From Bradyrhizobium sp. NDS-1 (lineage in GTDB: Bacteria; Pseudomonadota; Alphaproteobacteria; Rhizobiales; Xanthobacteraceae): 64,000 nucleotides of DNA. The stretch is taken from NCBI RefSeq assembly GCF_032918005.1, contig NZ_CP136628.1, positions 186,001 to 250,000 of the forward strand. Reading direction: 5' to 3'. Within the stretch, counting starts at the first letter, position 1. Each line of letters begins with the position of its first letter. The notes under the pieces were generated by a model, which saw only the letters and a program-made list of their open reading frames with translations, made no database searches and was not told the DNA's origin. Below are positions 19,711 to 36,235 of the stretch, piece after piece. The translations under genes were made by a program, and so were the position numbers.

Positions 19711-20427
19711 CTAGCCAGCCGGAGGGACAGCTGGAGCGGCGAGATACTCGTTCCAGATCGCCTTGTCGCCGAGCGTCGCAATGAAGGCTTGGTGGGCCTC
19801 GCGCTCGGCGTCCGAAGTTCGCGGCGCCAGCGGCACCAGGCGCTGCCGCCGCGGCGCATCGCCAGCCGCATTGACGCGAATCTCCTGAGCGTCCGACGCC
19901 AGGAGCAGCTGCGACTGCCGCGCCCCGACCAGATCGACATAGACCTCGGCCAGAAGCTCGGCGTCCAGCAGCGCGCCGTGCTTCGTACGGCGTGAATTGT
20001 CGATCGCGTAGCGCGAACAGAGATCGTCGAGCCGGTTGGACACGCCGGGATGCTTGCGACGTGCCAGCAGCAGCGTATCGACCAGCCGTTCGCGCGGAAT
20101 CGCCGCACGCTTGATGCGATCGAGCTCGGCATTGATGAAGCCGATGTCGAACGAGGCGTTGTGGATCACCAGCGGCGCATCGCCGATGAATTCCAGGAAC
20201 GCGTCGACGACCTCATGGAACAGCGGCTTCGTCGCCAGGAATTCGGCCGACAGTCCATGCACTGCGAACGCTTCCGCCGGCATGTCTCTCTCGGGGTTGA
20301 TATAGACGTGATACGTCTGCCCCGTCGGCATGCGGTTGAGCATCTCGACGCAGCCGATTTCGACCAGGCGATCGCCGCGAAGCGGATCGAGGCCGGTGGT
20401 TTCGGTGTCCAGAACGATTTCGCGCAT
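19711..20427 (-). CDS. dnaQ: DNA polymerase III epsilon subunit (3'-5' proofreading exonuclease)
   Basis: DEDDh exonuclease that proofreads for the replicative polymerase. Exo I motif VLDTETTGLD has Asp7 and Glu9, Exo II is HNASFDIGFINAEL, and Exo III is KHGALLDAELLAEVY with the catalytic His and Asp. At 238 residues it has the core domain plus a C-terminal tail for the alpha subunit. It follows coaE by 41 bp on the same strand and is probably in the ppsR-maf-coaE-dnaQ transcription unit. Confidence 0.96.
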   Translation of the reverse strand: MREIVLDTETTGLDPLRGDRLVEIGCVEMLNRMPTGQTYHVYINPERDMPAEAFAVHGLSAEFLATKPLFHEVVDAFLEFIGDAPLVIHNASFDIGFINAELDRIKRAAIPRERLVDTLLLARRKHPGVSNRLDDLCSRYAIDNSRRTKHGALLDAELLAEVYVDLVGARQSQLLLASDAQEIRVNAAGDAPRRQRLVPLAPRTSDAEREAHQAFIATLGDKAIWNEYLAAPAVPPAG

Positions 20428-20468
20428 GTCTTGATGTCAGAGTCGTGAGAGCCGCGTGGGACGACGAA

Positions 20469-21068
20469 TCAGGCTCGCCGCTGCGGCATCTTAACGACCT
20501 CGGCCAGGATGTGCGCGATTTGCGCGCGCACAGGCTCGAGTCCGTGCGACGTATCCACCACGAAATCGGCGCGCTTGCGCTTCTCGGCGTCCGGCGTCTG
20601 CTTGGCGATGATCGCGTCGAGCTTCGCTTCGTCCATGGTGCCGCGCGCCAGCACCCGCTCACGCTGGAGTTCCGGCGAGGTCGAGACCACGACCACGGCA
20701 TCGACCCGCTTCTCGCCGCCGGTCTCGAACAGCAACGGGATATCGAGAACCACGACCGGCGCCTTGGCCGCTTCCGCCTCGGCGAAGAACTTTTGCCGGG
20801 AGGCGCCGAGCATAGGATGAACGATCTGCTCGAGCTGCTTGATGGCGGCGGGATCGTGCACCACGCGCGCCGACAGTTTGGGCCGGTCGACCTTGCCGTT
20901 CACTGTGGTACCGGGAAAGGCGGCCTCGATCGCGGGGGCGGCTTCACCCTCATAGAGCTGATGCACGGCGGCGTCGGCATCGTAGACGGGCACACCGGCC
21001 TCCGCGAACAGTTTCGCGGTGGTGGATTTTCCCATCCCGATCGAGCCGGTCAGTCCCAGGATGCGCAT
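20469..21068 (-). CDS. coaE: dephospho-CoA kinase
   Basis: Last step of CoA synthesis: ATP-dependent 3'-phosphorylation of dephospho-CoA. The P-loop [13 protein letters not shown] is at residues 5-17; [12 protein letters not shown] and [20 protein letters not shown] are the family motifs for substrate and lid regions. It has 199 residues, normal for the family. With coaA at 7 kb the window carries the first and last enzymes of the pathway. It lies 23 bp downstream of maf; no aroE lies between them. Confidence 0.96.
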
Positions 21069-21091
21069 CAGCCTACAGCCATATCCGTCAT

Positions 21092-21700
21092 TTACACCGC
21101 AACTAGCCGCTCGCTGCGCAGGAACGCAAGCAGCCGCAGCAAAGGCAGGCCGAGAATGGTGAAATGATCGCCTTCGATGCGCTCGAACAGATGGATGCCC
21201 AGCCCTTCAAGCTGATAGGCGCCGACGCTGGTCATGACGGCGTCGCCGGCGGCATCCAGATAGGCTGCAAGCTCGTCCTCGGTCATCTCGCGCATGGTCA
21301 TGCGGGCGATCGAGACGTCTTCGAACACGATCTTGCCGTCATGCGCCACGGCCACCGCGGAATTCAGCTCGTGGCTGTTGCCGGCGAGATCGCGCAATTG
21401 CGCCAAGGCCTGCGGACGCCCCACGGGCTTGTTGAAGAGACGGTCGCCAAGAGCCAAGGTCTGATCGGCACCGATCACGTAGCTCCCGGGATGATCGGCG
21501 CAGACCGCCTTGGCCTTTTCGCGCGCCAGCAGCAGAGCGATCTCTCGCGGACTCGACAGCGCTGAAGCGGCTTGAACACCGCGTTCATCGATATCAGCGG
21601 TGATGGCCTTGAACTCCAGCCCGGCATTGGCGAGCAGCATTTTTCGCGCGCTGCTCTGCGAGGCCAGGATCAACGGAGATTTGCCGAGCCACAGACCCAT
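21092..21700 (-). CDS. maf: Maf family nucleotide pyrophosphatase
   Basis: Maf-type house-cleaning NTP pyrophosphatase, formerly called septum formation inhibitor. Typical N-terminal motif [19 protein letters not shown] (residues ~10-28), then DERGVQ, the metal-binding [16 protein letters not shown] and [21 protein letters not shown]. The residue pattern SSARKMLL resembles the YceF-like (m7GTP) subgroup rather than the dTTP/UTP YhdE subgroup, but this cannot be settled by eye. The start lies 8 bp after the ppsR stop. Confidence 0.93.
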
Positions 21701-21708
21701 CGCGAAGA

Positions 21709-22548
21709 CTATCCGGAAGGCCGGTTGCGCTGGCGATCACTGTAGAGCTTCATGATCGCCGCCGCTGTTTCCTCTATCGAGCGACGCGTGACGTCGAGCA
21801 GCGGCCAATCATGCTTGGCGCTGAGCTTGCGCGCAAAAGCCACCTCCTCGGTGACCGACTGCCTGTCGGTATAGGTGTCGTTGCCGGAGTCTGAGCCCAT
21901 GGAGAGCAGGCGGTTCTGGCGGATCTGGATCAGGCGTTCCGGTGTCGCATGCAGGCTGACCACCAGCGGCCGGGTCAGCGTCTCCAATTGCGAAGGCACC
22001 GGAATGCCGGGAACCAGCGGCACGTTGGCGGTGCGGATGCCGCGATTGGCGAGATAGATCGACGTCGGCGTCTTCGAGGTGCGGGACACGCCGACCAGGA
22101 CGACGTCGGCATCGTCGAGGCCTTCGACGTGCTGGCCGTCGTCGTGGATCATCGTGTAGTTCAGCGCGTCGATACGCTTGAAATATTCCGCGTTGAGAAC
22201 GTGCTGAGCGCCGACGCGGCCTGTGGTCGCAGCCCCGAGATAGGCTTCGAACAGCTGCATCACCGGGCCGATGATCGACAGGCTCGGAACGTTGATCCCC
22301 TTGCACTTGTCCTCGAGCCTGGAGACCAGATCCTTCTCGAGCAACGTGAACAGCACGATCCCCGGCGCTTCCTCGATCTCGTCGAGCACCCGATCGAGCT
22401 GCTTCTGGCTGCGCACCAGCGGATAGACATGCTCGACCGGCGTCACGTTGGCGTACTGGGCCGCGACCGCGCGCGCCACCGTGATCAGCGTCTCACCGGT
22501 GGAGTCGGAGACGAGGTGCAGATGGAAATAATTGTTCGAGGTTGGCAC
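21709..22548 (-). CDS. ppsR: bifunctional PEP synthase/PPDK regulatory kinase-phosphorylase (DUF299)
   Basis: ADP-dependent Ser/Thr kinase and Pi-dependent phosphorylase that switches phosphoenolpyruvate synthase or pyruvate,phosphate dikinase off and on. The 279-residue protein begins with [13 protein letters not shown] and has the family P-loop [16 protein letters not shown] near residue 150, then [10 protein letters not shown]. The start is GTG 22548. It is the first gene of the minus-strand run, facing away from the candidate origin region. Which target enzyme it regulates is not visible here. Confidence 0.93.
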
Positions 22549-22851
22549 AAAAACTCTTTGTATGAAGGCGGTGTGGTTTGTGGATTTCTGTGGAGCTTAA
22601 CCCCTCGGAAAGGGATGTGCGACACCAGGGTCGGGACAAGTGCCAATTTTCTTCACACCGCTGCCCGTCTGAACAAGTTCGCCGGCCTGTCGGCACGGAA
22701 ACGGGATTGCGCGGACAACCCCCTTGATAAGCTGCCGACAGAAAGGCGCAAGCCTTTGAAGCTAACGGACTTATCGAAGAGCGCCAGGAGCGGTCTGGGA
22801 TATGTTGATGGATGTGAACAAGCGCGCGTGAACCCGCGGACGGAATTGCAT

Positions 22852-22901
22852 GAGTCCAATCCACGGTCACATAGACTCAAACCTTAAGAATCTAAGATTC
22901 T
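22852..22901. promoter_or_regulatory. cluster of four GANTC (CcrM) methylation sites
   Basis: GAGTC 22852, GACTC 22874, GAATC 22888 and GATTC 22896, each a different variant of the CcrM target. The last two form a perfect inverted repeat AGAATCT-A-AGATTCT (22887-22901). Chance spacing of GANTC in DNA of this GC content would be about one per 300 bp. Confidence 0.8.
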
Positions 22902-22948
22902 AGATTTGAGGAAGGCGCTTCGGACGGATATGTGTGCACGGTGAGACC

Positions 22949-22963
22949 TTAACGAGTTCTTAC
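22949..22963 (+). promoter_or_regulatory. near-consensus CtrA binding site
   Basis: TTAA-CGAGTTC-TTAC, seven of eight conserved bases of TTAA-N7-TTAA, about 45 bp before the hemJ start. In Caulobacter CtrA sites in the origin repress replication and the adjacent hemE promoter, so this placement is suggestive. Confidence 0.5.
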
Positions 22964-23006
22964 TATCCCCAGTTCCTTTCGCTGGGCAGAAACCCGGGCC
23001 GCGAAA

Positions 23007-23441
23007 ATGTTCGAAGACGTCTATCTCTGGATCAAGGCGCTGCATGTGATCGCGGTCATCGCCTGGATGGCCGGCATGCTCTATCTGCCGCGACTGTTCG
23101 TCTATCATTCCGAGGCCGAGATCGGCTCGAAGCAGTCGGAAACGTTCAAGGTGATGGAGCGCCGGCTGCTCAAGGCGATCATCAACCCGGCTATGACGAT
23201 CACCTGGCTTGCCGGTCTCTATCTCGCCTGGTCCGGCCACTGGTTCTCGTTCGGCTGGCTGCACGTAAAACTTGCACTGGTCCTGGCGATGTCGGCGGTC
23301 CACGGCTTTTTTTCCCGCTGGCTGAAGGATTTTGCCGCCGACCGGCGTCCGCGATCTCAGAAATTCTATCGTATTATCAATGAGGTGCCGACCGTCCTGA
23401 TGATTTTGATCGTCATCATGGTGATCGTGAAGCCGTTCTAG
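23007..23441 (+). CDS. hemJ: protoporphyrinogen oxidase HemJ (UPF0093)
   Basis: Inner-membrane protoporphyrinogen IX oxidase used for haem synthesis by most alphaproteobacteria. The 144 residues form four membrane helices. Hallmarks: WIKALHVIAVIAWMAGMLYLPRLFVYH with the conserved His, then GWLHVKLALVLAMSAVHGFF with the second conserved His, and the C-terminal YRIINEVPTVLMILIVIMVIVKPF-like end (given by its ends). It is the first plus-strand gene after the candidate origin. Its promoter region carries the CtrA-like and GANTC sites. Confidence 0.93.
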   Translation: MFEDVYLWIKALHVIAVIAWMAGMLYLPRLFVYHSEAEIGSKQSETFKVMERRLLKAIINPAMTITWLAGLYLAWSGHWFSFGWLHVKLALVLAMSAVHGFFSRWLKDFAADRRPRSQKFYRIINEVPTVLMILIVIMVIVKPF

Positions 23442-23580
23442 GCAAGGCGCCTGACGATTAGCTCAGCGCTTCGGCTTGCGGAGCAGGAAGCGATTTTCTA
23501 TATTGGCGATATCCCACCCAACGCAGGCGGATGTGGTTGTGTCTGAGCTTTCCAGAGGCCGGACACCGCATCAGGTTTGA

Positions 23581-23689
23581 AGCCTCACCGGCACTTAACC
23601 TTGCCAGACCTGCGGACCTTACCTTCTCACGTCCGCATTTCAGAGCCTCCTCGCACCCCCTCCCAAGGTTACCCCACAGGACCACCCCA
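23581..23689 (+). promoter_or_regulatory. C-rich, G-poor leader before rho (candidate rut / autoregulation)
   Basis: In this ~110-bp stretch I count about 50 C and about 17 G, against a roughly balanced background. C>G bubbles of this kind load Rho. E. coli rho is autoregulated by Rho-dependent termination in its leader. The full hemJ-rho gap is 248 bp. Confidence 0.45.
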
Positions 23690-24955
23690 ATGCGGGAAAT
23701 TAAACTCGAAGACCTCAAGTCCAAAACCCCGGCCGAGCTCGTCTCGTTTGCGGAGGAGAATGGGGTCGAGAACGCCAGCACCATGCGCAAGCAGGAGCTG
23801 CTGTTTGCCATCCTCAAGCAGCTCGCTCTCGCCGAGACCGACATTGTCGGCCAGGGCGTCGTCGAAGTGCTCTCCGACGGCTTCGGCTTCCTCCGCTCGC
23901 CCGATGCGAATTATCTGCCCGGCCCGGACGATATCTACGTTTCGCCGTCGCAGATCCGCCGTTTCGGCCTGCGCACGGGCGACACCATCGAAGGCCATAT
24001 CCGCAGCCCGAAAGAAGGCGAGCGCTATTTCGCGCTGCTGAAGGTCAACACGCTCAACTTCGAGGATCCGGAAAAGGCCAAGCACAAGGTCAATTTCGAC
24101 AACCTCACGCCGCTGTTTCCGAATCAGCGTTTCCGCATGGAAATCGACGATCCGACGCGGAAAGACCTGTCTGCACGCGTGATCGACATCGTCGCTCCCA
24201 TCGGCAAGGGCCAGCGCGCATTGATCGTGGCGCCGCCGCGCACGGGTAAGACCGTGCTGATGCAGAACATCGCGCACTCGATCACGCACAATCATCCCGA
24301 GTGCTATCTGATCGTGCTTCTGATCGACGAGCGTCCGGAAGAAGTTACGGACATGCAGCGTTCGGTGAAGGGCGAGGTCGTGTCGTCGACCTTCGACGAG
24401 CCGGCGGTGCGTCACGTCCAGGTCGCCGAGATGGTGATCGAAAAAGCCAAGCGTCTGGTCGAACATGGCCGCGATGTCGTGATCCTGCTCGATTCGATCA
24501 CCCGTCTCGGCCGCGCCTACAACACGGTCGTGCCGTCATCCGGCAAGGTGCTGACCGGCGGTGTCGACGCCAACGCGCTGCAGCGCCCGAAGCGCTTCTT
24601 CGGTGCCGCCCGCAATATCGAGGAGGGCGGCTCGCTGACCATCATCGCGACCGCGCTGGTCGATACCGGCAGCCGCATGGACGAAGTCATCTTCGAAGAG
24701 TTCAAGGGCACCGGTAACTCGGAACTGATCCTGGACCGCAAGGTCTCGGACAAGCGCACCTTCCCGGCGATCGACATCTCGCGCTCGGGCACCCGCAAGG
24801 AAGAGCTCATCACCGATCCGCAGGTGCTCAAGAAGATGTACGTGCTCCGCCGCATCCTCAATCCGATGGGGACGATGGACGCGATCGACTTCCTGCTCGA
24901 CAAGCTGCGATCGACCAAGAGCAATTCCGAGTTCTTCGACTCCATGAATACCTGA
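23690..24955 (+). CDS. rho: transcription termination factor Rho
   Basis: Hexameric RNA-dependent ATPase/translocase that ends transcription. The 421-residue protein begins [17 protein letters not shown] (Rho N-terminal domain), has the RNA-binding cold-shock fold ([27 protein letters not shown]), Walker [11 protein letters not shown] near residue 181, Q-loop and Walker B ([16 protein letters not shown]), and R-loop [14 protein letters not shown] 23690 has AGGA upstream and fits all homologues; the frame stays open upstream to 23531 but those codons do not look like Rho. A strong intrinsic terminator follows. Confidence 0.97.
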
Positions 24956-24986
24956 GTGCACTGCAACACAGATCGCACAGGTTCAG

Positions 24987-25010
24987 AGGGCGCCTTCGGG
25001 CGCCCTTTTC
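24987..25010 (+). terminator. intrinsic terminator of rho
   Basis: Stem AGGGCGCC / GGCGCCCT around a TTCG tetraloop, followed by TTTTC, 32 bp after the rho stop codon. Confidence 0.85.
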
Positions 25011-25276
25011 ATTGTGCGGCTTTGTTGCAGCGAACGTGCAGCATGGAAGCCGCCTCAATGCCGGAGCGACCTCTTAATTAAGCTGTTGATTTATCATATA
25101 ATAATTCAAAGTCGCGCTGTCCCTTCCGGTCCGCGCTAGATAAAAGCGCAGCAAAATCTTGGAGTTATATTGCGGTGCAACATGGTTGTTTGCTGCAGCA
25201 AACAGCGCAGCAAGCTGTGCCCTCTTTTCATTCGGACGGACATTTGCCTTTTCGCCGGCAGCCGGACAAATAGGCC
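25011..25276. promoter_or_regulatory. rho-mnmE intergenic region with AT-rich stretch and 18-bp palindrome
   Basis: 266 bp without a convincing gene. 25074-25115 is unusually AT-rich for this genome (TTAATTAA, then TTTATCATATAATAATTC) and probably includes the mnmE promoter. A perfect 18-bp palindrome, TGTTTGCTG/CAGCAAACA, lies at 25187-25204, about 70 bp before the mnmE start; it could be an operator, but I know no factor for it. Confidence 0.5.
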
Positions 25277-26614
25277 ATGCATCCGCGAGACCAGACCATC
25301 TTTGCATTGTCGTCCGGCCGGGCGCCGAGCGCCATCGCCGTGGTCCGCGTGTCGGGATCGCAGGCCGGCCAGGTGCTGACGACCCTGGCTGGCAAGCTGC
25401 CGGCGCCGCGGCAGGTTGCTCGGCGGCTGCTCCGCGACCAAGCGGGCCGGCCGATCGACGAAGCGGTCGTGCTCTGGTTTCCGGGGCCGGCCAGTGCGAC
25501 CGGCGAGGACGTCGCCGAATTCCACGTCCATGGCGGACGCGCGGTGCTGGCGGCGCTCGTCTCCTCGATTTCTGTTATTCAGAATACGCGGGCGGCCGAG
25601 CCGGGTGAATTCACGCGACGGGCGTTCGAGAACGGCAAGCTCGATCTGACCGAGGCCGAGGGCCTCGACGATCTCATTCACGCCGACACCGACCGGCAGC
25701 GGCGCCAGGCGCTGCGGCAATTGCAGGGCCTGCTCGGGGATCGCGCACGCGACTGGCGCGATCGGATCATCGAGGCCTCCGCGCTGATCGAGGCCGGAAT
25801 CGATTTCTCCGATGAGGGTGACGTGCCGGCAGAGCTGATGGCGCCGGCGGTGAAAGCGATCAAGGCTCTTCACGACGAAATCGCAGAAGTGCTTGCGGCA
25901 CAGGGACATTCTGAACGCCTGCGTGACGGTATCGTGGTTGCCATCGCAGGCCATCCGAACGTCGGCAAGTCGACGCTGATGAATCAGCTCGCGCGTCGCG
26001 AGGTTGCGATCGTCTCGCCGCATGCCGGCACCACGCGTGACGTGATCGAGGTGCAGCTTGATCTCGACGGCTACCCCGTCACGGTCATCGATACCGCTGG
26101 CATCCGCGAGACCGACGATCCCGTCGAGCAGGAGGGCGTGCGCCGGGCGCGGGCCCGGGCTGGGAGCGCCGACCTCGTGTTGTGGCTGGTGGAGGGTGGA
26201 CAGGCCGCCGATCTGACGTCCAGCGCTGCGAGCGATCTGTCCGGTGGCACGGTCTGGGTCGTGCGCAACAAGATCGATCTTGGTGAGGTCGGGGCGGTGG
26301 AGCCGCAGGGGGAGTTCGGGATCTCGGCGAGCCGGGGCGACGGCATTCCAGATCTGGTCGATGCCCTGGTGAAATTTGCCGCGGAGTTCTTCGGAACCGG
26401 TGAGGGTGCGTTGGTAACCCGGACCCGCCAGCGGGATCTCCTGCGCCAAGCGTCTGACAGCTTGCGACGGAGCCTGGAGCTTGTAGAAGAGGGCGAGGAG
26501 CTTGCGGCCGAAGAGCTGCGTGCCGCCGCTTATGCCCTCGGTCGGTTACTGGGACGGGTGGACGTCGAGGACGTCCTGGGAGCCATTTTCCAGAAGTTCT
26601 GCATTGGGAAGTAG
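25277..26614 (+). CDS. mnmE: tRNA-modification GTPase MnmE
   Basis: With MnmG it adds the cmnm5/nm5 group at wobble U34 of tRNAs. The 445-residue protein has an N-terminal folate-binding domain ([21 protein letters not shown]), a helical domain split by the inserted G domain: G1 GHPNVGKST (~225), G2 TTRD, G3 DTAG, G4 NKID. The C-terminal motif FCIGK carries the catalytic Cys. ATG 25277 begins [15 protein letters not shown] perfect 12-bp-arm hairpin starts at its stop codon. Confidence 0.97.
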
Positions 26615-26643
26615 CTCTAGTTCTTCATTGTAGAACTAGAGCT
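26613..26643 (+). terminator. hairpin at the mnmE stop codon
   Basis: Perfect 12-bp arms AGCTCTAGTTCT and AGAACTAGAGCT around a 7-nt loop, followed by TTGTT. The stem begins within the TAG stop. Likely terminator or mRNA 3' boundary. Confidence 0.6.
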
Positions 26644-26658
26644 TGTTCCATTGCTTGC

Positions 26659-26672
26659 GTTTCACGTGAAAC
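26659..26672. other. parS: parS site 1
   Basis: Perfect palindrome GTTTCACGTGAAAC, the 14-bp core of the ParB-binding consensus TGTTTCACGTGAAACA. In the mnmE-mnmG gap. Confidence 0.92.
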
Positions 26673-26704
26673 CGCGGAGCGCTTGGTTGGCAACAAGTTC
26701 CGGG

Positions 26705-26720
26705 TATTTCACGTGAAACA
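26705..26720. other. parS: parS site 2
   Basis: TATTTCACGTGAAACA, one mismatch (A for G at position 2) to the 16-bp parS consensus. In the mnmE-mnmG gap. Confidence 0.88.
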
Positions 26721-26741
26721 GGATGGACCCGAGAGCCCTTC

Positions 26742-26755
26742 GTTTCACGTGAAAC
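26742..26755. other. parS: parS site 3
   Basis: Perfect 14-bp core GTTTCACGTGAAAC, third copy in the mnmE-mnmG gap; 37 bp from site 2 centre to centre. Confidence 0.92.
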
Positions 26756-26857
26756 GCCGCCGATCAGCGGTCCAAAACCGCAAACGAATCAACGCCTCTT
26801 GTACTGTGCAGGGGTTGTTTTTGCGAAAATCACATTCGGGCGCCGCAAGAGCAGCCT

Positions 26858-26873
26858 CGTTTCACGTGAAACA
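26858..26873. other. parS: parS site 4
   Basis: CGTTTCACGTGAAACA: perfect core with the 3' consensus A, about 57 bp before the mnmG start codon, so ParB binding could affect the mnmG promoter. Confidence 0.92.
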
Positions 26874-26929
26874 TCTGCCGCCTGAGTTTCTACTTCCGGC
26901 TTTCACGCCTCTGAGTTAGAAGTCCGGTT

Positions 26930-28810
26930 ATGCGACCAGAGCGAGACAGCTTCGACGTCATTGTGATTGGCGGCGGCCACGCCGGCTGTGAAGCCGCGGC
27001 TGCCTCTGCCCGGATGGGTGCAACGACCGCTCTGGTGACGCATCGTTTTTCGACGGTCGGCGCGATGTCCTGCAATCCCGCCATCGGCGGTCTCGGCAAG
27101 GGACATCTGGTTCGCGAAGTCGATGCGCTCGATGGTCTGATGGGACGCGTGGGCGATGCCGGCGGCATCCAGTTTCGCGTGCTCAATCGCCGCAAAGGTC
27201 CGGCGGTCCGTGGTCCCCGGGCGCAGGCCGACCGAAAACTCTATGCCGCTGCGATGCAGGCAGCGATCCTGGCGACTGAAGGTTTGTCCGTTATCGAAGG
27301 TGAGGCCGACGAGCTGATCGTGGCCGAGGGCCGGGTGACGGGTCTTCGCCTGGCGGACGGCCGGGAGCTTCGGGCAGGAGCTGTGGTCGTCACCACCGGC
27401 ACCTTCCTCCGCGGTCTCATTCATCTCGGCGAGAAGAATTGGCCCGCCGGCCGTGTCGGTGAGGCTCCCGCGACCGGTCTGTCCGCTTCCTTCGAGCGTG
27501 CCGGCTTCACCCTTGGGCGGCTCAAGACCGGCACTCCGCCGCGTCTGGACGGCACCACGATCGACTGGTCCACGGTCGAGATGCAGCCCGGAGACGAGCC
27601 GCCGGAGCCATTCTCGGTGATGACCGAGCGGATCACGACCCCGCAGATCCAGTGCGGTATCACCCGGACCACAGCCGCCACGCACGAGGTGATCCGGGCG
27701 AATGTTCATCGCTCTCCGATGTACTCCGGTCAGATCAAGAGCTCCGGCCCGCGCTATTGCCCGTCGATCGAGGACAAGATCGTCCGCTTTGGCGACCGCG
27801 ACGGCCATCAGATCTTCCTGGAGCCGGAAGGCCTCGACGACAGCACAGTCTATCCCAACGGGATCTCAACCTCGCTCCCCGAGGAGGTCCAGCTCGCGAT
27901 CCTCGCCAGCATTCCTGGCCTGGAGCGGGTGAAGATGGTCCGTCCGGGCTATGCCATCGAGTACGACCACATCGATCCCCGCGAGCTCGACCCAACCTTG
28001 CAGACCAAGCGCATGCGGGGTCTGTTCCTGGCCGGGCAGATCAACGGCACCACCGGATACGAAGAGGCCGCCGGGCAGGGCATCGTGGCCGGCCTGAACG
28101 CTGCGCTCTCCGCGAGCAGCGCCGCGCTGGCGGTTTTCGATCGGGCCGACGGCTATCTCGGCGTGATGATCGACGACCTCGTCACCCGCGGGATTAGCGA
28201 GCCCTATCGGATGTTCACATCGCGAGCCGAGTACCGGCTAACGCTGAGAGCCGACAATGCCGATCAGCGCCTCACCGAGAAGGGGATTGCGCTCGGCTGC
28301 GTCGGCAATGCCAGGACCCGGCATCATCGCACCAAGATGGATGCGTTGAACGCGGCCAGGGCGCTGTCGAAGTCACTGACGATTACCCCGAACGAGGCAA
28401 CCAAGCATGGCCTGTCGCTGAATCGGGACGGCCAGCGCCGGTCGGCCTTCGAGCTGATGGCCTATCCGGAGATCGGCTGGAGCCAGGTCCGTGCGATCTG
28501 GCCGGAGCTTTCCGCGATTGAGCCCGTCATCGCGACCCACCTCGAAATCGACGCCAAGTACGATGTCTACCTCGAGCGCCAGAGCGCCGACGTCGAGGCC
28601 TTTCGGCGCGACGAGGGAATGGTGCTGTCAGAAGTCGATTACAGCCTTGTCCCCGGTCTCTCCAACGAGGTCCGCGCCAAGCTGGAGAAGGCACGGCCGT
28701 TCACCGTCGGGCAGGCTGGCCGGATCGACGGCATGACGCCCGCCGCGCTCGGCATCCTCGCGGCCTATCTCCGCCGCGAGGCGCGGAAGACCTCCAAGGC
28801 AATCGCATAG
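26930..28810 (+). CDS. mnmG: tRNA uridine-5-carboxymethylaminomethyl modification enzyme MnmG (GidA)
   Basis: FAD-dependent partner of MnmE in wobble-uridine modification. The 626-residue length is standard. FAD-binding motif [19 protein letters not shown] is at residues 12-30, followed by [19 protein letters not shown] with the conserved Cys; [14 protein letters not shown] ([16 protein letters not shown]) and [21 protein letters not shown] are also present. C-terminal helical domain with [11 protein letters not shown]. It is 315 bp from mnmE because the parS cluster lies between, and is followed after 9 bp by rsmG. Confidence 0.97.
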
Positions 28811-28812
28811 GC

Positions 28813-28827
28813 GTTTCACGTGAAACA
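28813..28827. other. parS: parS site 5, overlapping the rsmG start codon
   Basis: Perfect core GTTTCACGTGAAAC (28813-28826) plus the consensus A, placed 3 bp after the mnmG stop. The GTG inside CACGTGAAAC is the apparent rsmG start. Confidence 0.9.
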
Positions 28828-29590
28828 GCGCGGACCGGGCGGGGACAGGCCGCTATCGCGACGACCAGGAACGGGTGAGGGCGCGGGTCGATCCGAACCG
28901 GCTCCAGCCAAACCGAGGATCGATAAGGCCAGCGCCAACGATCGGGCGCTCGATTCGATCATAGCCGCCGACAAGCGCGAGGCCTTGAGGCTCGCGCCCG
29001 TTTCACATGAAACGGAAGCCCGGCTCGATCGCTACATCGCACTGCTCCGGGAGTGGCAGGCCAAGACCAATCTGGTCGCGCCCTCGACCCTGCCGAACCT
29101 CTGGACCCGGCACATCGCCGATTCGCTCCAGCTCATCGATCTCGCGCCGTCGGCAAAACGATGGGCCGACCTCGGCAGCGGCGGCGGTTTTCCCGGTGTC
29201 GTGCTGGCCTGCGCTATGGCCGGGACGCCGGGTGCGAGCGTCCATCTCGTCGAGCGGATCGCCAAGAAGGCCGCGTTTTTGCGCGAAGCGGTTCGCGTCA
29301 CCACATCTCCGGGAGTCGTACATCTCGCTGAGATCGGGGATAATGTGGATAGAATCACAGGCCCCATCGATTGCGTCACCGCGCGCGCGCTGGCTCCGCT
29401 ACATCAACTCATCGGCTTTGCGGAGCCGCTGATGCGCCAGGGCGCAAAGGCGTTATTTCCTAAGGGTCAAGATGTAGAGGCTGAATTGACCGAAGCCGCT
29501 AAATATTGGAATATTCAGCCGCAGCTCCATCGAAGCCGTACCGGCGATGGTTGGATAGTCGAGCTGATGTCGGCTGAACGGCGCGGGTGA
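28820..29590 (+). CDS. rsmG: 16S rRNA (guanine(527)-N(7))-methyltransferase RsmG (GidB)
   Basis: SAM-dependent methyltransferase that makes m7G527 in 16S rRNA. Core motifs: LLREWQAKTNLVAPSTL, then the SAM-binding WADLGSGGGFPGVVLA and HLVERIAKKAAFLREA, and TARALAPLHQL. The 256-residue reading frame is longer than usual because of a ~50-residue Pro/Arg-rich start. The only good upstream start is GTG 28820, inside parS site 5; the next candidate is TTG near 28985. A parS-like variant lies in the coding sequence. A conserved operon partner of mnmG and parAB. Confidence 0.92.
   Translation: MKQRGPGGDRPLSRRPGTGEGAGRSEPAPAKPRIDKASANDRALDSIIAADKREALRLAPVSHETEARLDRYIALLREWQAKTNLVAPSTLPNLWTRHIADSLQLIDLAPSAKRWADLGSGGGFPGVVLACAMAGTPGASVHLVERIAKKAAFLREAVRVTTSPGVVHLAEIGDNVDRITGPIDCVTARALAPLHQLIGFAEPLMRQGAKALFPKGQDVEAELTEAAKYWNIQPQLHRSRTGDGWIVELMSAERRG
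29000..29013. other. parS-like variant inside rsmG
   Basis: GTTTCACATGAAAC, one central change (CACGTG to CACATG) from the parS core, within the codons for PVSHETE. It may be a weak ParB site or a decayed one. Confidence 0.5.
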
Positions 29591-29618
29591 GGCGTTCAGG
29601 GGCGAGTGGGGAAATTCG

Positions 29619-30485
29619 ATGACCGTGATTGACGAGCCGCAGCAAGAGCAGAGTCGGGAACCGACCAGCGAGGTCCCGCACGGCCATCCGCGTATCCTGG
29701 CGCTGGCGAATCAGAAGGGCGGGGTGGGTAAGACAACCACAGCGATCAACCTCGGCACGGCACTCGCGGCGATCGGCGAACGTGTTCTGATCGTCGATCT
29801 CGATCCGCAGGGCAACGCTTCGACCGGCCTCGGCATCGACCGCCGCAACCGGTCCTGCTCGACCTACGACGTGCTGATCGGAGAAGCTCCGCTGCGTGAA
29901 GCCGTGGTCTCGACCGCTGTGCCGCGGCTTCACATCGCGCCCTCGACCATGGATCTCTCCGGCCTCGAGCTCGAGCTCGGCACCACGCCCGGCCGCGCCT
30001 TCAAGCTGCGCGACGCCATCGGCGCGCTCAACAACAACGTGTCGCCGGATGCCGACTACACCTATGTGCTGATCGACTGTCCGCCCTCGCTGAACCTGCT
30101 CACGGTGAACGCGATGGCAGCGTCCGATGCGATCCTGGTGCCGCTGCAATGCGAGTTCTTCGCGCTCGAAGGTCTGTCGCAATTGCTCCAGACGGTGGAG
30201 CAGGTGCGCTCGACACTCAACCCGAACCTGTCGATCCACGGCATCGTGCTGACCATGTTCGACTCGCGCAACAATCTCTCGAACCAGGTCGTTGCCGACG
30301 TGCGGCAGTTCATGGGCGAGAAAGTCTACAAGACCATGATTCCGCGCAACGTGCGCATCTCGGAAGCGCCGTCTTACGGCAAGCCGGTGCTGGTCTACGA
30401 TCTCAAATGCGTCGGCAGCGAAGCTTACTTGCGGCTCGCCACCGAAGTGATCCAGCGCGAGCGTGAGTTGCGGACGACGCATTGA
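29619..30485 (+). CDS. parA: chromosome-partitioning ATPase ParA (Soj)
   Basis: Deviant Walker ATPase that moves ParB-parS complexes and so segregates the new origin. The 288-residue protein has the signature Walker A ALANQKGGVGKTTTAINLG (Lys33-Thr40), Walker A' VDLDPQGNASTGLGI, and Walker B YVLIDCPPSLNLLT. A short ~25-residue charged N-terminal extension precedes the fold. ATG 29619 follows rsmG by 28 bp. The parS cluster lies just upstream and parB just downstream, a complete chromosomal ParABS set. Confidence 0.97.
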   Translation: MTVIDEPQQEQSREPTSEVPHGHPRILALANQKGGVGKTTTAINLGTALAAIGERVLIVDLDPQGNASTGLGIDRRNRSCSTYDVLIGEAPLREAVVSTAVPRLHIAPSTMDLSGLELELGTTPGRAFKLRDAIGALNNNVSPDADYTYVLIDCPPSLNLLTVNAMAASDAILVPLQCEFFALEGLSQLLQTVEQVRSTLNPNLSIHGIVLTMFDSRNNLSNQVVADVRQFMGEKVYKTMIPRNVRISEAPSYGKPVLVYDLKCVGSEAYLRLATEVIQRERELRTTH

Positions 30486-30500
30486 CGGAGAGATCCGCAG

Positions 30501-30577
30501 GGCGGGTCAGCGCAGCGTAACCCGCCGAATCTCCCGCCTCGACAAAGCCATGGCGGATGACGCTTCGCTCATCCGCC
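30501..30577. repeat. two intergenic palindromic repeats between parA and parB
   Basis: GGCGGGT/ACCCGCC arms (30501-30526) and perfect 9-bp arms GGCGGATGA/TCATCCGCC (30552-30577). The sequences match types I know as dispersed 'GCGGGTTACGC...' and 'GGCGGATGACGC...' repeats of Bradyrhizobium. They split parA from parB by 155 bp. Confidence 0.65.
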
Positions 30578-30640
30578 CTACGACCCGCAATTCGAAATTC
30601 AGTTCTGGAGTGCTGCACCGTGAATCCAAGGGAGCTGGCG

Positions 30641-31528
30641 ATGGCCGATGAAGCGCGTTCGCGACTGGGCCGGGGTCTTGCAAGTCTGATCGGCGATGTC
30701 GGCGGCGAAGCCCAGCACGTCGACCGTCCGCGGGCGCAGCGCAAGGTGCCGATCGAGTTCATCAAGGCCAATCCGCGCAATCCGCGCCGCACTTTTTCGG
30801 ACGCCGAACTGAAGGAGCTAAGCGAGTCCATCAGGCAGCACGGCGTGATCCAGCCGATCGTGGTGCGTCCGGTGAAGGGCGCACAGGATCGCTTCGAGAT
30901 CATCGCTGGCGAGCGGCGCTGGCGCGCCTCGCAGATGGCCGGCCTGCACGAAGTGCCGATCGTCCCGGTCGACATCAGCGACAGTGACGCGCTGGAGTTC
31001 GCGATCGTCGAGAACGTGCAGCGCGAGGATCTCAACCCGATGGAAGAGGCGCAGGGCTATCACGCGCTCGCCAACGAATTCAAACGCAGCCAGGAGGACA
31101 TCGCAAAAGTCGTCGGCAAGAGCCGCAGCCACGTCGCCAACATGATGCGGCTGACGAAGCTGCCCGCCGAGGTGCAGGCCTTCATCGCGACCGGCGAGCT
31201 GACCGCCGGCCATGCCCGCGCGCTGATCGGCGTGCCGGATCCGCTCGCAGCCGCCAAGCGCATCGTCGAGGAAGGCCTCAACGTCCGCCAGGCCGAGGCG
31301 CTCGCGCATGAAGAGGGCGTGCCGGAGCGCAAGCCGCAAAAGGCGCGCAGCACGGGGGGCAAGGATAAGGACCCCGACACGATTGATCTCGAAAAGCGCG
31401 TCAGCGACGCGCTCGGCCTCAAGGTCACCGTCAATCACCGCGATCCCGGCGGCTCGGTCCAGATCACCTATCGCAACCTCGATCAGCTCGACGAGGTGAT
31501 GAAGCGGCTGGCCAAGGGCGCGCTGTAG
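30641..31528 (+). CDS. parB: chromosome-partitioning protein ParB (Spo0J)
   Basis: CTP-dependent DNA clamp that loads at parS. The 295-residue protein starts MADEARSRLGRGLASLIGDV (ParA-interacting N terminus with SRLGRGL). The CTPase/ParB-N domain contains IRQHGVIQPIVVRP and IIAGERRWRASQMAG; the helix-turn-helix is around YHALANEF to KSRSHVANMMRL. A C-terminal dimerisation domain ends VQITYRNLDQLDEVMKRL. ATG 30641 has GGGAG upstream; the frame upstream to 30557 runs through a repeat. It is convergent with holA. Confidence 0.97.
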   Translation: MADEARSRLGRGLASLIGDVGGEAQHVDRPRAQRKVPIEFIKANPRNPRRTFSDAELKELSESIRQHGVIQPIVVRPVKGAQDRFEIIAGERRWRASQMAGLHEVPIVPVDISDSDALEFAIVENVQREDLNPMEEAQGYHALANEFKRSQEDIAKVVGKSRSHVANMMRLTKLPAEVQAFIATGELTAGHARALIGVPDPLAAAKRIVEEGLNVRQAEALAHEEGVPERKPQKARSTGGKDKDPDTIDLEKRVSDALGLKVTVNHRDPGGSVQITYRNLDQLDEVMKRLAKGAL

Positions 31529-31544
31529 CGACGATCGTCGTTGT

Positions 31545-31570
31545 CGCCCCCTGCGAACGCGGGGATGACG
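31545..31570. repeat. inverted repeat between convergent parB and holA
   Basis: CCCC(C)TGCGAACGCGGGG flanked by GTCG/GATGACG, part of a dispersed element type. Its place between convergent stops suggests a bidirectional transcription boundary. Confidence 0.45.
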
Positions 31571-31601
31571 GCGGGTGTCCGGGACGCGAGAAAGCGCAGG
31601 C

Positions 31602-32630
31602 CTATCCCCGCCGCTTCGCATTCGCGGCGATCGCCATCAGCGTGCGTTGCGCGATGGCGGCGGCGAGGGTGGATTGCTTGCGGGTGTCGAGCGCCGCGGT
31701 CGCCAGCTGCTCGATGATGGCCGCGAGCCGCGCCACGCTGAAATTGCGCAGCGCGGTTTCGACCGCGGGCTTTCGTGAAAAGTGCAGGCGCGGATAGCCG
31801 CTGTCGAGCACCGTCGAGGCCGGCGTACCGTCGGCGATCGCGAGCGCCGATTTGTGCAGCCACGCGGCCTGGCGCTGCGCCGCCGAGATGATCACGCCGG
31901 GATAGGTGCCGGCGATCATGGCCTTGGCGAACTCGGTCTCGACGATGTCGGGCCGACCGGCGAAGGCGCCGTCGACGATCGGATCGAGCTTCAGCTCGGA
32001 GGCATCGGCGACCACCGACATCACATCGTCCAGCGTGATCTCGCCTTTGCCATGCGCATAGAGCGTGAGCTTGCGCAGCTCGTTGCGCGAGGCCTGGCGA
32101 TCGCCGCCGAGGAACGACATCAGCGCGGCGCGAGCGTCCTGCGCGATGCGCAAATTGGCGATACGCAGCTCGTCTTCCATCAGCTTGGCGAGATCGCGCT
32201 CGGTGTCGGGATAGCAGCCGATCGCCACAGCCGTCTTGGCCTTCTCGCAGGCTTTGCGCAGCGGCGATTCCGGGCGCAGCTCGCCGGCCTCGATCACGAT
32301 GCGGCAATCCCTGACGCTCATCTCTGCGAGAGTGTCGACGCCGCTGGCAAAGCTGCGCGAGCCGGCCCGGATGCGGATCGCGCGGCGGCCGCCGAACAGC
32401 GGCACGGTCATGGCTTCGTCGACGAGGCGGGACGGCTCGGCAGAAAGCTCGTCGCCATCCAGCTTGACCAGTGAAAAGGGATCGTTGGGATCGTCGACGG
32501 CGGAGGCGATCAGCGCATCCGCGCGCTCGCGCACGAGGCCGGCATCGGGGCCGTAGAGCAGGACGATCGGACGACCCGCATCGGGACGGGCAAGGAAGGC
32601 GTCGATCTCTTTTCCGCGTAGCGCGACCAT
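31602..32630 (-). CDS. holA: DNA polymerase III delta subunit (clamp-loader)
   Basis: Opens the beta sliding clamp within the clamp-loader complex. The 342 residues begin MVALRGKEIDAFLARPDAGRPIVLLYGPDAGLVRERA (family pattern 'YG.D..L..E'). The middle contains VRDCRIVIEAGELRPESPLRKACEK, typical of delta domain I-II, and the C-terminal collar domain follows. As in other delta subunits, there is no Walker A. Read from leuS, the order leuS-lptE-holA is conserved in many proteobacteria and the three genes are probably co-transcribed. Confidence 0.93.
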   Translation of the reverse strand: MVALRGKEIDAFLARPDAGRPIVLLYGPDAGLVRERADALIASAVDDPNDPFSLVKLDGDELSAEPSRLVDEAMTVPLFGGRRAIRIRAGSRSFASGVDTLAEMSVRDCRIVIEAGELRPESPLRKACEKAKTAVAIGCYPDTERDLAKLMEDELRIANLRIAQDARAALMSFLGGDRQASRNELRKLTLYAHGKGEITLDDVMSVVADASELKLDPIVDGAFAGRPDIVETEFAKAMIAGTYPGVIISAAQRQAAWLHKSALAIADGTPASTVLDSGYPRLHFSRKPAVETALRNFSVARLAAIIEQLATAALDTRKQSTLAAAIAQRTLMAIAANAKRRG

Positions 32631-32639
32631 GTTGCCCCG

Positions 32640-32757
32640 ACGGCGTCATTCCGGGGCGGCTCGAAGAGCCGAACCCGGAATCTCGACCCACAATCTCTGG
32701 ATTCTCAGGTGCGCAATTGCGCACCATAGTTCACGCTTCGCGCACCCTGGAATGACT
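32640..32757. repeat. dispersed intergenic repeat between lptE and holA
   Basis: Begins GTCATTCCGGGGC and ends with GGAATGAC, enclosing GAACCCGGAATC and a perfect 16-bp palindrome GTGCGCAATTGCGCAC (32709-32724). A similar GTCATTCCGGGGCGC element recurs at 41768 and 54257 in this window. Confidence 0.7.
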
Positions 32758-32766
32758 GGAGTGATC

Positions 32767-33318
32767 TTACGTGCCGGCGGTGAAGAACGAGGCGAGCCGG
32801 GTCGTGATGTTCTCGGCGATCTCGTTGGCGGCCCGATCCTCGGCATCGCGCATGGCGCGGGTGCGCGAGAAGCGCTGATAGGACCCCGGCATGTCGTAGG
32901 ACACGCGGGAGAAGGTCGAGCCGGTCATGACCGCCGCGCCGGTCGCGACATCGACCAGCCTATACTGGGCGTCGATGCCAAGATTTTCGCTGGTCGGCAG
33001 GCCCGTCGTGGAGCTGACGATCAGCGAGGAACGGCTGGTGGTGAAACGGATGTCCAGCTTGTGGGTCGGCGGCATGCCTGTCGCGCTGCCGTAAAGCTTG
33101 AAGGCCAGCGCGTTGCGGATTTCGACGCCGACCCGGGCCTCGCGGGAGGCATTGGGCTTGGTGATCGGGGGCAGCTCGATGCCCATCAACTTCTCGCGCA
33201 GGCCGGGGGTGCCGTCGCTTCGCTCGGCATACATCGGCCGGAAGCAGCCGGCCGTCAGCGCGGCCAAGGCGGCGACCGCCAGCAAGCGGGCTGCGATGCG
33301 GATCCTAGCCGACAACAT
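32767..33318 (-). CDS. lptE: LPS-assembly lipoprotein LptE
   Basis: Outer-membrane lipoprotein that plugs LptD and delivers LPS to the cell surface. The 183-residue precursor has a lipoprotein signal with lipobox LTAGC (Cys25), then CFRPMYAE, a typical LptE opening, and an alternating strand/helix pattern. The start overlaps the end of leuS by 14 bp, which suggests coupling. The order leuS-lptE-holA supports the assignment. Confidence 0.9.
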
Positions 33319-35941
33319 TTACGATCCTCTTGGGGACGATGATCACCTTGCGGACGGGCTTGCCATCCAGGGCCAGCTTTACCGCATCGAGGGCCAAAAC
33401 GGCAGCCTCGATTTCCGGATTCTGGGCCGCTGTTGCAACTGTGACCTCACCCCGCTTCTTGCCATTGACCTGGACCACCAGGGTCACGCTGTCTTCAACC
33501 AGCAAATCGCGTTCGATTTGGGGCCAATTGGCCTCCGAAACCAGCCCGCTCTGGCCCAGAACCTGCCAGCACTCCTCAGCGAGGTGCGGCATCATCGGGG
33601 AGAAAAGCTGGACCAGGATCTGGCCGGCTTCCCGGATCGCCCAGGCCAAGTCCGGAGCCAGGCTCGCGGCGGACTGGCCGGGGCGCTGCAGGATCTCCGA
33701 AAAGGTATTGGCGAACTCGCGGATATGGGCGAGGCAGACGTTGAAGTGCAGCCGTTCGATCCCGGTCGTGACCTTGTCCAGCGCACCATGGGCGGCCTTG
33801 CGCAGGGCGGTGGCGTCGGGGCCGAAGCTGGTGGGGCGGGCCGCCGGCGCGCCCTTGCCGAACTCGACGGAATCGTTCACCAGCCGCCACAGCCGCTGCA
33901 CGAAACGCGAGGCGCCCTGGACGCGCTCGTCGCTCCAGATCACGTCGCGGTCGGGCGGGGAGTCCGACAGCATGAACCAGCGGGCGACGTCGGCGCCGTA
34001 GGTCTCGATGATGTCGTCGGGGTCGACCGTGTTCTTCTTCGACTTCGACATCTTCTCGATCGGTCCGATCTGGATGTCTTCGCCGGTGGCGAGCAGCGTG
34101 GCACGGCGTCCATTGCCGCCGACCTCGACCTTGACCTCGGCCGGCTGCACATAGGTGCCGTCGGCCTTCTGGTAGGTCTCGTGCACCACCATGCCCTGCG
34201 TGAACATGCCGGCGAACGGCTCGTCCAGCGCAATGTGGCCGGTCGCCTTCATCGCGCGGGTGAAGAAGCGGCTGTAGAGCAGATGCAGGATCGCGTGTTC
34301 GACGCCGCCGATATACTGGTCGACCGGGAGCATCCGGTTGGCGACTGCGGGCGTCGTCGGCGCGTTCTCGTTCCAGGGATCGGTGAAGCGCGCGAAATAC
34401 CAGGACGAATCCACGAAGGTGTCCATGGTGTCGGTTTCGCGGTTAGCGCTGCCGCCGCATTTCGGGCAGGTGACGTGCTTCCACGTCGGATGATGGTCCA
34501 GTGCGTTGCCCGGCTTGTCGAAGCTCACATCCTCCGGCAGCACCACCGGTAGGTCGGCGTCCGGCACCGGGACCACGTCGCACTTCGGACAATGGATGAC
34601 CGGTATTGGGCAGCCCCAATAGCGTTGGCGCGAAATGCCCCAGTCGCGCAGGCGGAAGTTCACCTGCCGCTCGCCGACCGGCATGTTGCCGCGCAGCTCG
34701 TTTTCCAGGCGTTTTGCAACTTCGTCCTTGGCCTGGTCGATCGTCATGCCGTCCAGGAAGCGCGAATTGATCATGCGGCCGTCACCGTCATAGGCGGTGT
34801 CGGTGATGACGAAGGTTTTCGGGTCCTGGCCCTCGGGGCACACGACGGGCGTGTTGCCGAGATTGTATTTGTTGACGAAGTCGAGGTCGCGCTGGTCGTG
34901 CGCCGGACAGCCGAAGATCGCGCCGGTGCCGTATTCCATCAGCACGAAATTCGCGACATAGACCGGCAGCTTCCAGGAGGGATCGAACGGGTGCACGGCG
35001 CGGATGCCGGTGTCAAAGCCCTGCTTCTCCGCCGTGTCGATGATCGACTGCGCGGTGCCGATCTTCTTGATGTCCGCGATGAATTCCGCGAGTTTCGGGT
35101 TCTTTGCGCTAGCTGCCTGCGCCAGGGGATGATCCGCCGAGATCGCCATGAATTTCGCGCCGAACAGCGTGTCCGGGCGCGTCGTGAAGATCTTCAGCTC
35201 ACTCTCGCCGGCAGGCGTCGTCGCCTGATCGAGCGCGAAGCGGACCAGCAGGCCTTCCGAGCGGCCGATCCAATTGCGCTGCATCAGCCGCACCTTGTCG
35301 GGCCAGCGGTCCAGCCCATCGAGTGCCGACAGCAATTCCTGCGAATACTTCGTGATCTTGAAGACCCACTGGCTCATCTCGCGCTGCTCGACGATCGCAC
35401 CGGAGCGCCAGCCGCGGCCGTCAATCACCTGCTCGTTGGCGAGCACGGTCATGTCGACCGGATCCCAGTTGAGCTTGCGCTTCTCGCGCTCGGCGAGGCC
35501 GGCGGCGAGCATGTCCAGGAACATCTTCTGCTGATGCTTGTAGTAGCTGGGGTCGCAGGTCGCGAATTCGCGTGACCAGTCCAGCGACAGCCCGATCGAG
35601 CGGAGCTGCTTCTTCATCGCGGCGATGTTGTCGTAGGTCCAGGCCTTCGGCGCGACCTTGCGCTCGATCGCGGCATTCTCGGCCGGCAGGCCGAAGGCGT
35701 CCCAGCCCATCGGGTGCAGCACGTTGAACCCCTTGGCGCGCATGAAGCGGGCCAGCACGTCGCCGAGCGTATAATTCCGGACATGGCCGATATGGATGCG
35801 CCCGGACGGGTAGGGGAACATCTCGAGCACATAATATTTCGGCCGCGAATCGTCGTTCCTGGAGACGAAGATCGCCTGCTGGTCCCAGAGGCGTTGCCAG
35901 CGCGGTTCGGCGTCGCGGGCGTTATAGCGTTCGGAGGTCAT
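33305..35941 (-). CDS. leuS: leucyl-tRNA synthetase
   Basis: Charges tRNA-Leu. The 878-residue class Ia synthetase has HIGH motif HIGH (50-53, in [10 protein letters not shown]) and KMSKS in [15 protein letters not shown]. The CP1 editing domain includes [19 protein letters not shown] and [15 protein letters not shown], and a zinc-like segment [14 protein letters not shown] is seen. The anticodon-binding region and C-terminal [16 protein letters not shown] end are intact. I prefer ATG 35941 ([16 protein letters not shown]) to TTG 35977, which would add 12 residues. Confidence 0.97.
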
Positions 35942-36235
35942 GGAATCGTTGGGTTTTCGTGGGTTCGGCCGGCTCAAGACGGCGGACTAGGCCATAAAAG
36001 TCCGTAACGGGTCAATGGGTTGCCGAAAACCGTTAGAATCCCCTCGGTCACACCTCTGGACTCCCGGTCCATTACGGAGGAGGCTCTATTTCTAAGGGTG
36101 ATTGAGGCCGCGGGGCCAAGTTGTGGGAACCCTGAGGCCGGGACCTTGCGCCAAGCTCGCCACCGCTTCCGACCAACTCGATGATGACGGCGCGGCGGCC
36201 TCCTTGGCCTCTCAGCGGCTGCAATCGGTGCTGCA
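35942..36235. other. intergenic region upstream of leuS, no gene seen
   Basis: Nearly 300 bp before the GGDEF remnant. It should hold the leuS promoter. GAGGAGGCTCT at 36076-36086 looks like a ribosome-binding site but no plausible reading frame follows it. Both TGA codons at 36182-36187 block the frame of the GGDEF remnant. Confidence 0.3.

Follow-up and report, generated by a model that had tools for sequence, protein, structure and literature searches.

The 458-bp intergenic gap between ppsR and hemJ of Bradyrhizobium sp. NDS-1 is very probably the DnaA-dependent chromosome origin (oriC), as predicted from sequence. Its position and synteny support this view, as do sequence conservation, the density of motifs, a low duplex stability and agreement with strand skew. 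The window analysed is a stretch of 64,000 nucleotides, bases 186001-250000 of one 7,645,890-bp contig (C1); numbering within it starts at its first base, and the features are listed in Table 1. The location of the origin has already been predicted in congeners; what is new is the test in the NDS-1 genome and the anatomy of the region, and a base-level map of the origin with its conserved parts is now given. The right genome start matters for depth-based growth estimates and for replication studies. The contig begins with dnaA, whose frame is already open at base 1; this start is probably the depositor's convention and is no evidence on the origin.

A sequence-only reading of the window had named the gap as a candidate origin, at a flip in gene direction and near a parABS module. 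The skew interval, synteny and predictions in congeners (see below) support the candidate. The dnaQ-like gene, coaE, maf and ppsR (which we take to be the COG1806/DUF299 gene) lie on the minus strand, and all genes from hemJ to parB on the plus strand, hemJ being followed by rho, mnmE, mnmG, rsmG and then parA and parB. Going right from the gap, the parS sites lie at 3.7-5.8 kb and the genes parA and parB at 6.6-8.5 kb, so both observations hold. The query 22400-23100 matched its own genome one time, and HemJ matches with 97-99% identity were all named Bradyrhizobium. No Rfam match was obtained for 22400-23100 up to E = 1, and the open reading frames crossing the gap (21949-22887, plus strand; 22493-22870, minus strand) matched no Pfam family at E 0.001.

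Table 1. Features of the putative origin and its surroundings (window coordinates; fractions refer to the alignment of 81 sequences)
Feature	Position	Strand	Conservation or remark
RNase_T (dnaQ-like)	19711-20427	-	left side of gap
coaE	20469-21068	-	left side of gap
maf	21092-21700	-	left side of gap
ppsR (Kinase-PPPase), left boundary gene	21709-22548	-	Pfam PF03618
ppsR|hemJ intergenic gap, putative oriC	22549-23006 (G000:C1:208549-209006)	.	458 bp, 53% GC
DnaA-box-like L1, AAATCCACA, 2 mismatches to TTATCCACA	22579-22587	-	TGTGGA in 74/81
DnaA-box-like L2, TCCACA core 22589-22594	22588-22595	-	TGTGGA in 80/81
TTAACC, CtrA-half-site-like, adjoins L2	22597-22602	+	79/81
TTCTTCACA, weak DnaA-box-like, 2 mismatches	22649-22657	+	TTCACA in 81/81
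TGATAAGCT, conserved block (minus strand TTATC)	22725-22733	+	TGATAA in 65/81
TTGTTCACA, weak DnaA-box-like, 2 mismatches	22813-22821	-	TGTGAACAA in 72/81
GANTC G1, abuts R1	22852-22856	.	80/81
Right DnaA-box-like R1, CAATCCACG, >2 mismatches to TTATCCACA	22857-22865	+	AATCCAC in 65/81; AATTCAC in at least 12 more
Predicted unwinding stretch (DUE)	22865-22915	.	weakest 51-mer of gap
GANTC G2	22874-22878	.	80/81
GANTC G3	22888-22892	.	81/81 (GAATC 73, GATTC 8)
GANTC G4	22896-22900	.	68/81
CtrA-like TTAACGAGTTCTTAC, 1 mismatch	22949-22963	+	first TTAA in 69/81
CTATCCCCA, weak DnaA-box-like, 2 mismatches	22963-22971	+	TCCCCA in 70/81
hemJ (UPF0093), right boundary gene	23007-23441	+	Pfam PF03653
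parS cluster, site of Ori-Finder-type origin	26658-26873	.	26658-26673, 26705-26720, 26741-26756, 26858-26873
Fifth parS-like palindrome, mnmG/rsmG junction	28812-28827	.	
parA	29619-30485	+	
parB	30557-31528	+	

Cumulative GC skew was calculated from 140 samples of 20 kb (2.8 Mb of the 7.65-Mb chromosome). The minimum (−1906) was reached after sample 165001, the next sample being 220001, and this interval contains the gap; a minimum far from the gap, the outcome that was to count against the sequence-only reading, was thus not seen in these 2.8 Mb. A second low after sample 440001 was nearly as deep (−1727), and the maximum followed sample 4180001. In a likelihood fit with the terminus fixed at a dif-like site (4279019) the best origin was 190001; the gap was 1.6 log units below the best, the symmetric point 456075 was 6.6, dnaA 13.7 and hemE 61.4 below. 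Since the 1-kb bins are correlated, a bootstrap is a fairer guide than these log units, and its 2.5-97.5% interval extended from −306 kb to +1.01 Mb, including dnaA at C1:1. With such a broad interval and poor resolution the strand-composition shift at the gap is coarse, and skew therefore backs the region, not the base.

KOPS alone gave C1:75001 as the best origin (297/343 concordant versus 294/343 for the gap). In this fit the gap was 5.5 log units under the best, equal to the 456-kb site, and dnaA was 7.3 under; the bootstrap ranged from −46 to +790 kb. A search for dif with a 19-base pattern yielded 0 matches, and a shorter pattern matched six times, at five loci, once with a single mismatch (C1:4279019). 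This putative dif falls between samples where KOPS change strand, and the two arms that join the gap to it differ in length (about 4.07 versus 3.58 Mb).

The presence of GANTC, TGTGG and CtrA-like motifs and the lack of a perfect DnaA box, both noted from the sequence before, were confirmed: the gap holds four GANTC and two TCCACA (TGTGGA on the plus strand), its CtrA-like sites are all imperfect, and nothing in it lies within 1 mismatch of TTATCCACA, the E. coli DnaA box. At up to 2 mismatches four DnaA-box-like sites were found, a cluster above background at this threshold. Among 12,040 windows of 458 bp drawn from the 140 samples, this number was reached in 19, the TCCACA count in 48, the AT content in 123 and the GANTC count in 204; none reached the values of the gap in TCCACA, GANTC and AT jointly. 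These ranks are descriptive, because the features were picked after inspection of the gap. The CtrA-like motif TTAA-N7-TTAA had no perfect match in the gap. One site has 1 mismatch, where the sample gives an expectation of 0.019 per 458 bp, and two more have 2 mismatches, in total three at up to 2 mismatches versus 0.19 expected. The best of these sites may act for the origin or for the promoter of hemJ. IHF sites with at most 1 mismatch were absent from the gap, and the motif TGTTTCACG occurred there once at 2 mismatches and not at 1 or fewer.

An easily melted stretch lies beside a DnaA-like box: 22865-22915 begins at the right edge of R1 and is the second weakest non-overlapping 51-mer of the window, and by nearest-neighbour energies, the only measure used, 0.02% of sampled 51-mers are equally weak or weaker. 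The stretch is conserved to about 22900 and less further right. The weakest-melting 51-mer of the window is 25063-25113 in the rho-mnmE spacer, probably promoter or terminator DNA. As an origin this spacer was rejected; it is less conserved and lacks both GANTC and DnaA-like sites at up to 2 mismatches.

For conservation among close relatives we used the best 80 of 377 (79 named Bradyrhizobium and one Bradyrhizobiaceae MAG). The ppsR|gap|hemJ junction was intact in all 80, with gaps of 431-512 bp and 51-56% GC. When these were aligned with the window, 112 of 458 gap columns (24.5%) were invariant, compared with 2.6% of fourfold sites in ppsR, 7.5% in hemJ and 6.1% in rho, although the two statistics are not quite alike; in the rho-mnmE spacer 11.2% of columns were invariant (79 sequences, 78 of the 80 loci and the window). 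Mean column conservation was 0.856 for the gap, 0.781 for ppsR fourfold sites and 0.879 for rho fourfold sites. The mean of the gap is not above that of rho, and the signal therefore resides in blocks. In the core blocks 22570-22606, 22628-22660, 22798-22822 and 22848-22900, 43-55% of columns were invariant; the blocks 22722-22735 (21%), 22901-22948 (12%) and 22949-22975 (7%) were weaker.

The motifs extend beyond the genus. All 100 family genomes contained ppsR, and in 50 family loci (own included) the gap was followed by hemE in 19 and by hemJ in 29, with neither found in two (L231, L270). In L270, ppsR was followed by rho, with no hemE or hemJ detected between them. Leaving out the window's own locus and near relatives (L224, L225, L233, L234, L237), 43 gaps remained of 48 obtained from the 50 loci. 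TCCACA was present in 42 of them (8.8 expected) and AGAATCT/AGATTCT in 36 (2.4 expected), and GANTC totalled 183 (shuffle mean 86.9, maximum 108). At the level of the order, which we take to be Hyphomicrobiales/Rhizobiales, ppsR was present in 70 of 81 genomes, and we analysed 20 stretches of 601 bp from other families, partly coding in some. Of these, 18 contained TCCACA, against a mean of 4.5 and a maximum of 9 in shuffles, and 13 contained AGANTCT (shuffle mean 2.1, maximum 5). Total GANTC in the 20 stretches, at 74, did not exceed the shuffled values (mean 59.8, maximum 82). All these family and order counts overstate significance, because related sequences are not independent. Counts of at least two (36/47) or at least one GANTC (47/47) are biased and no evidence, since the anchor score included GANTC.

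The sequence-only reading had stated that other alphaproteobacteria have their origin at this junction, next to hemE. The junction is supported, but hemE is absent from it, leaving ppsR as the Cori-type boundary gene; hemE lies at G000:C1:1883311-1884324, 1.67 Mb off. Since hemE is next to the gap in 16 of the 20 order-level stretches (in the other four no hemE or hemJ was detected over about 600 bp) and in 19 of the 50 family loci, ppsR|hemE-hemJ-rho is likely the ancestral order. On this view hemE moved away from the junction in the Bradyrhizobium group and, going by identity alone, a second time in the genus to which L257 and L265 belong. The origin-like DNA stayed with ppsR. Two loci of genus g38 (L238, L252) kept hemE at the junction, although relatives without hemE there have a PpsR of about the same closeness, and the more distant L257 and L265 (genus g12) lack hemE there; this pattern would correspond to repeated departures or returns of hemE.

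In the window positions 20001-36000 we found five palindromes with up to 2 mismatches to TGTTTCACGTGAAACA, which we take to be parS. At up to 1 mismatch the whole genome contains three: two lie in the mnmE-mnmG spacer and one at mnmG/rsmG, shortly ahead of parA and parB. Ori-Finder proposed TGTTTCACG as the DnaA boxes of Bradyrhizobiaceae beside gidA, and the palindrome was remarked there as well (PMC2275245); the origin of B. diazoefficiens was set by the same motif (PMC4840208), which was also reported for Oligotropha (PMC3091675). The main text of Ori-Finder 2022 does not contain TGTTTCACG. An origin in the mnmE-mnmG spacer, with TGTTTCACG as family-specific DnaA boxes, is thus in print for the family, and skew cannot separate the spacer from the gap, as they are about 3.6 kb apart. 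We nevertheless regard it as very unlikely: TGTTTCACG is half of the parS palindrome, the recognition motif of the NDS-1 DnaA is canonical, and the spacer holds four palindromes (up to 2 mismatches) and one GANTC but no TCCACA or DnaA-like site at up to 2 mismatches. This suggests that the published origin corresponds to the parS cluster, a ParB site having been mistaken for a DnaA box, which would explain how the Bradyrhizobium origin came to be put on parS by the predictor and, through its motif, in at least one paper. A literature search, far from exhaustive, found no paper noting this mix-up.

It is a shade less probable still that the gap is a divergent promoter of ppsR and hemJ/rho, regulated by CtrA, DnaA and GANTC, and that replication starts elsewhere, for example upstream of dnaA. 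The genes do diverge, with the CtrA-like site 44-58 bp before hemJ, and the 1.5 kb upstream of dnaA (G000:C1:7644391-7645890) hold five DnaA-like sites at up to 2 mismatches (one at 1) and nine GANTC, within reach of the broad skew interval. However, TCCACA is absent there, dnaA fits the skew much worse than the best position, the motifs of the gap stay whether hemE or hemJ comes next, and skew shifts reported for congeners lie near the ppsR|hemJ junction. That the origin moved along with hemE to C1:1.88 Mb is hardly conceivable. The origin predicted for Wolbachia does keep company with hemE rather than with the homologue of COG1806 (ppsR) (PMC1914354), but the 790 bp upstream of hemE in NDS-1 contain one GANTC and neither TCCACA nor a DnaA-like site at up to 2 mismatches, and this position fits the skew 61.4 log units worse than the best.

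For the ppsR|hemJ gap, DnaA binding, opening, firing and a role of CtrA are inferred. The C-terminal domain of DnaA matches solved DnaA chains including 1j1v (89 bits), presumably the E. coli DnaA domain on a DnaA box. Its GGRDHTTV motif is identical in the alignment to 8btg, and a box of the TTATCCACA type is therefore expected. DnaA would bind the weak left pair L1 and L2 together with R1, with more weak sites between, and a DnaA filament would extend rightward from R1 and open the AT-rich stretch 22865-22915. The start of this stretch at the right edge of R1 fits such loading and rightward opening. Helicase would then be loaded, two forks would head to the terminus near 4.28 Mb, and parS with ParA/ParB would separate the new origins, while the CtrA-like sites may hold back firing.

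Three of the GANTC sites (G2-G4) lie inside 22865-22915 and G1 touches R1. Outside the gap, which is not part of the 2.8-Mb sample, the sample has two places with four GANTC in 50 bp (G000:C1:2862565 and 3359197). NDS-1 has a gene for a RAMA-domain (CcrM-type) protein, and among 14 controls this family was detected in Caulobacter alone. The opening stretch might be written in CcrM sites, full versus half methylation altering melting or DnaA loading and firing waiting for CcrM, an order-wide counterpart of Dam/SeqA at a DnaA origin. In favour of this reading, AGAATCT/AGATTCT and AGANTCT recur in the family gaps and order-level stretches and the middle base of G3 varies; we consider the reading unlikely. 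In Caulobacter, DNA content was unchanged without CcrM, which is not required for the control of initiation (PMC3973325), and a methylation role at the gap is doubtful for this reason. Depletion of CcrM in Agrobacterium had an effect on ori2 but left the number of foci of ori1, which depends on DnaA, unaffected. GANTC methylation does vary between the origin and the terminus of the Caulobacter and Ensifer chromosomes. The conserved GANTC may serve transcription or simply suit melting. E. coli oriC offers a possible analogy only, in that methylation sites are clustered at the opening region, the mark being GANTC (CcrM) here and Dam/SeqA there.

Published predictions point to the same place, and no experimental mapping of the origin appeared among the papers listed in a literature search. 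In the USDA6 paper the skew is reported to shift at 650 kb in USDA6 and at 705 kb in USDA110; the putative origin was put between bll0636 and blr0637, with 82% identity of USDA6 and USDA110 over 391 bp. The DOA9 paper places a putative origin at the orthologous junction, and for S23321 an origin was also predicted by skew. In USDA110, USDA6 and DOA9 this junction is the same as the NDS-1 gap: the left gene end in DOA9 (1,312,684) coincides with the left edge of the gap found here in L052 (1,312,685-1,313,144), and the right gene as published starts at 1,313,070, which falls within the gap by our boundaries. The origin sections of the USDA6 and DOA9 papers use skew, synteny and the USDA6/USDA110 alignment, and do not mention DnaA boxes, an unwinding stretch or the GANTC cluster.

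Cori of Caulobacter crescentus (hemE|CC0001) has a COG1806/DUF299 gene as left neighbour, as here, and parS about 8 kb away (PMC1914354, PMC6399470), parS being likewise near the gap in NDS-1. GANTC motifs are present in the Caulobacter origin (PMC3973325) as in the gap. In contrast, Cori has hemE as boundary gene where NDS-1 has hemJ, and it carries five bound CtrA sites and IHF, compared with a single CtrA-like site at 1 mismatch in the gap. In the right ends of the stretches L288, L293 and L295, AAC/ACA triplet runs, e.g., AACAACAAC, were seen by eye between a TAATCCA/TAATTCA-like site and a GANTC, and are possibly DnaA-trio-like.
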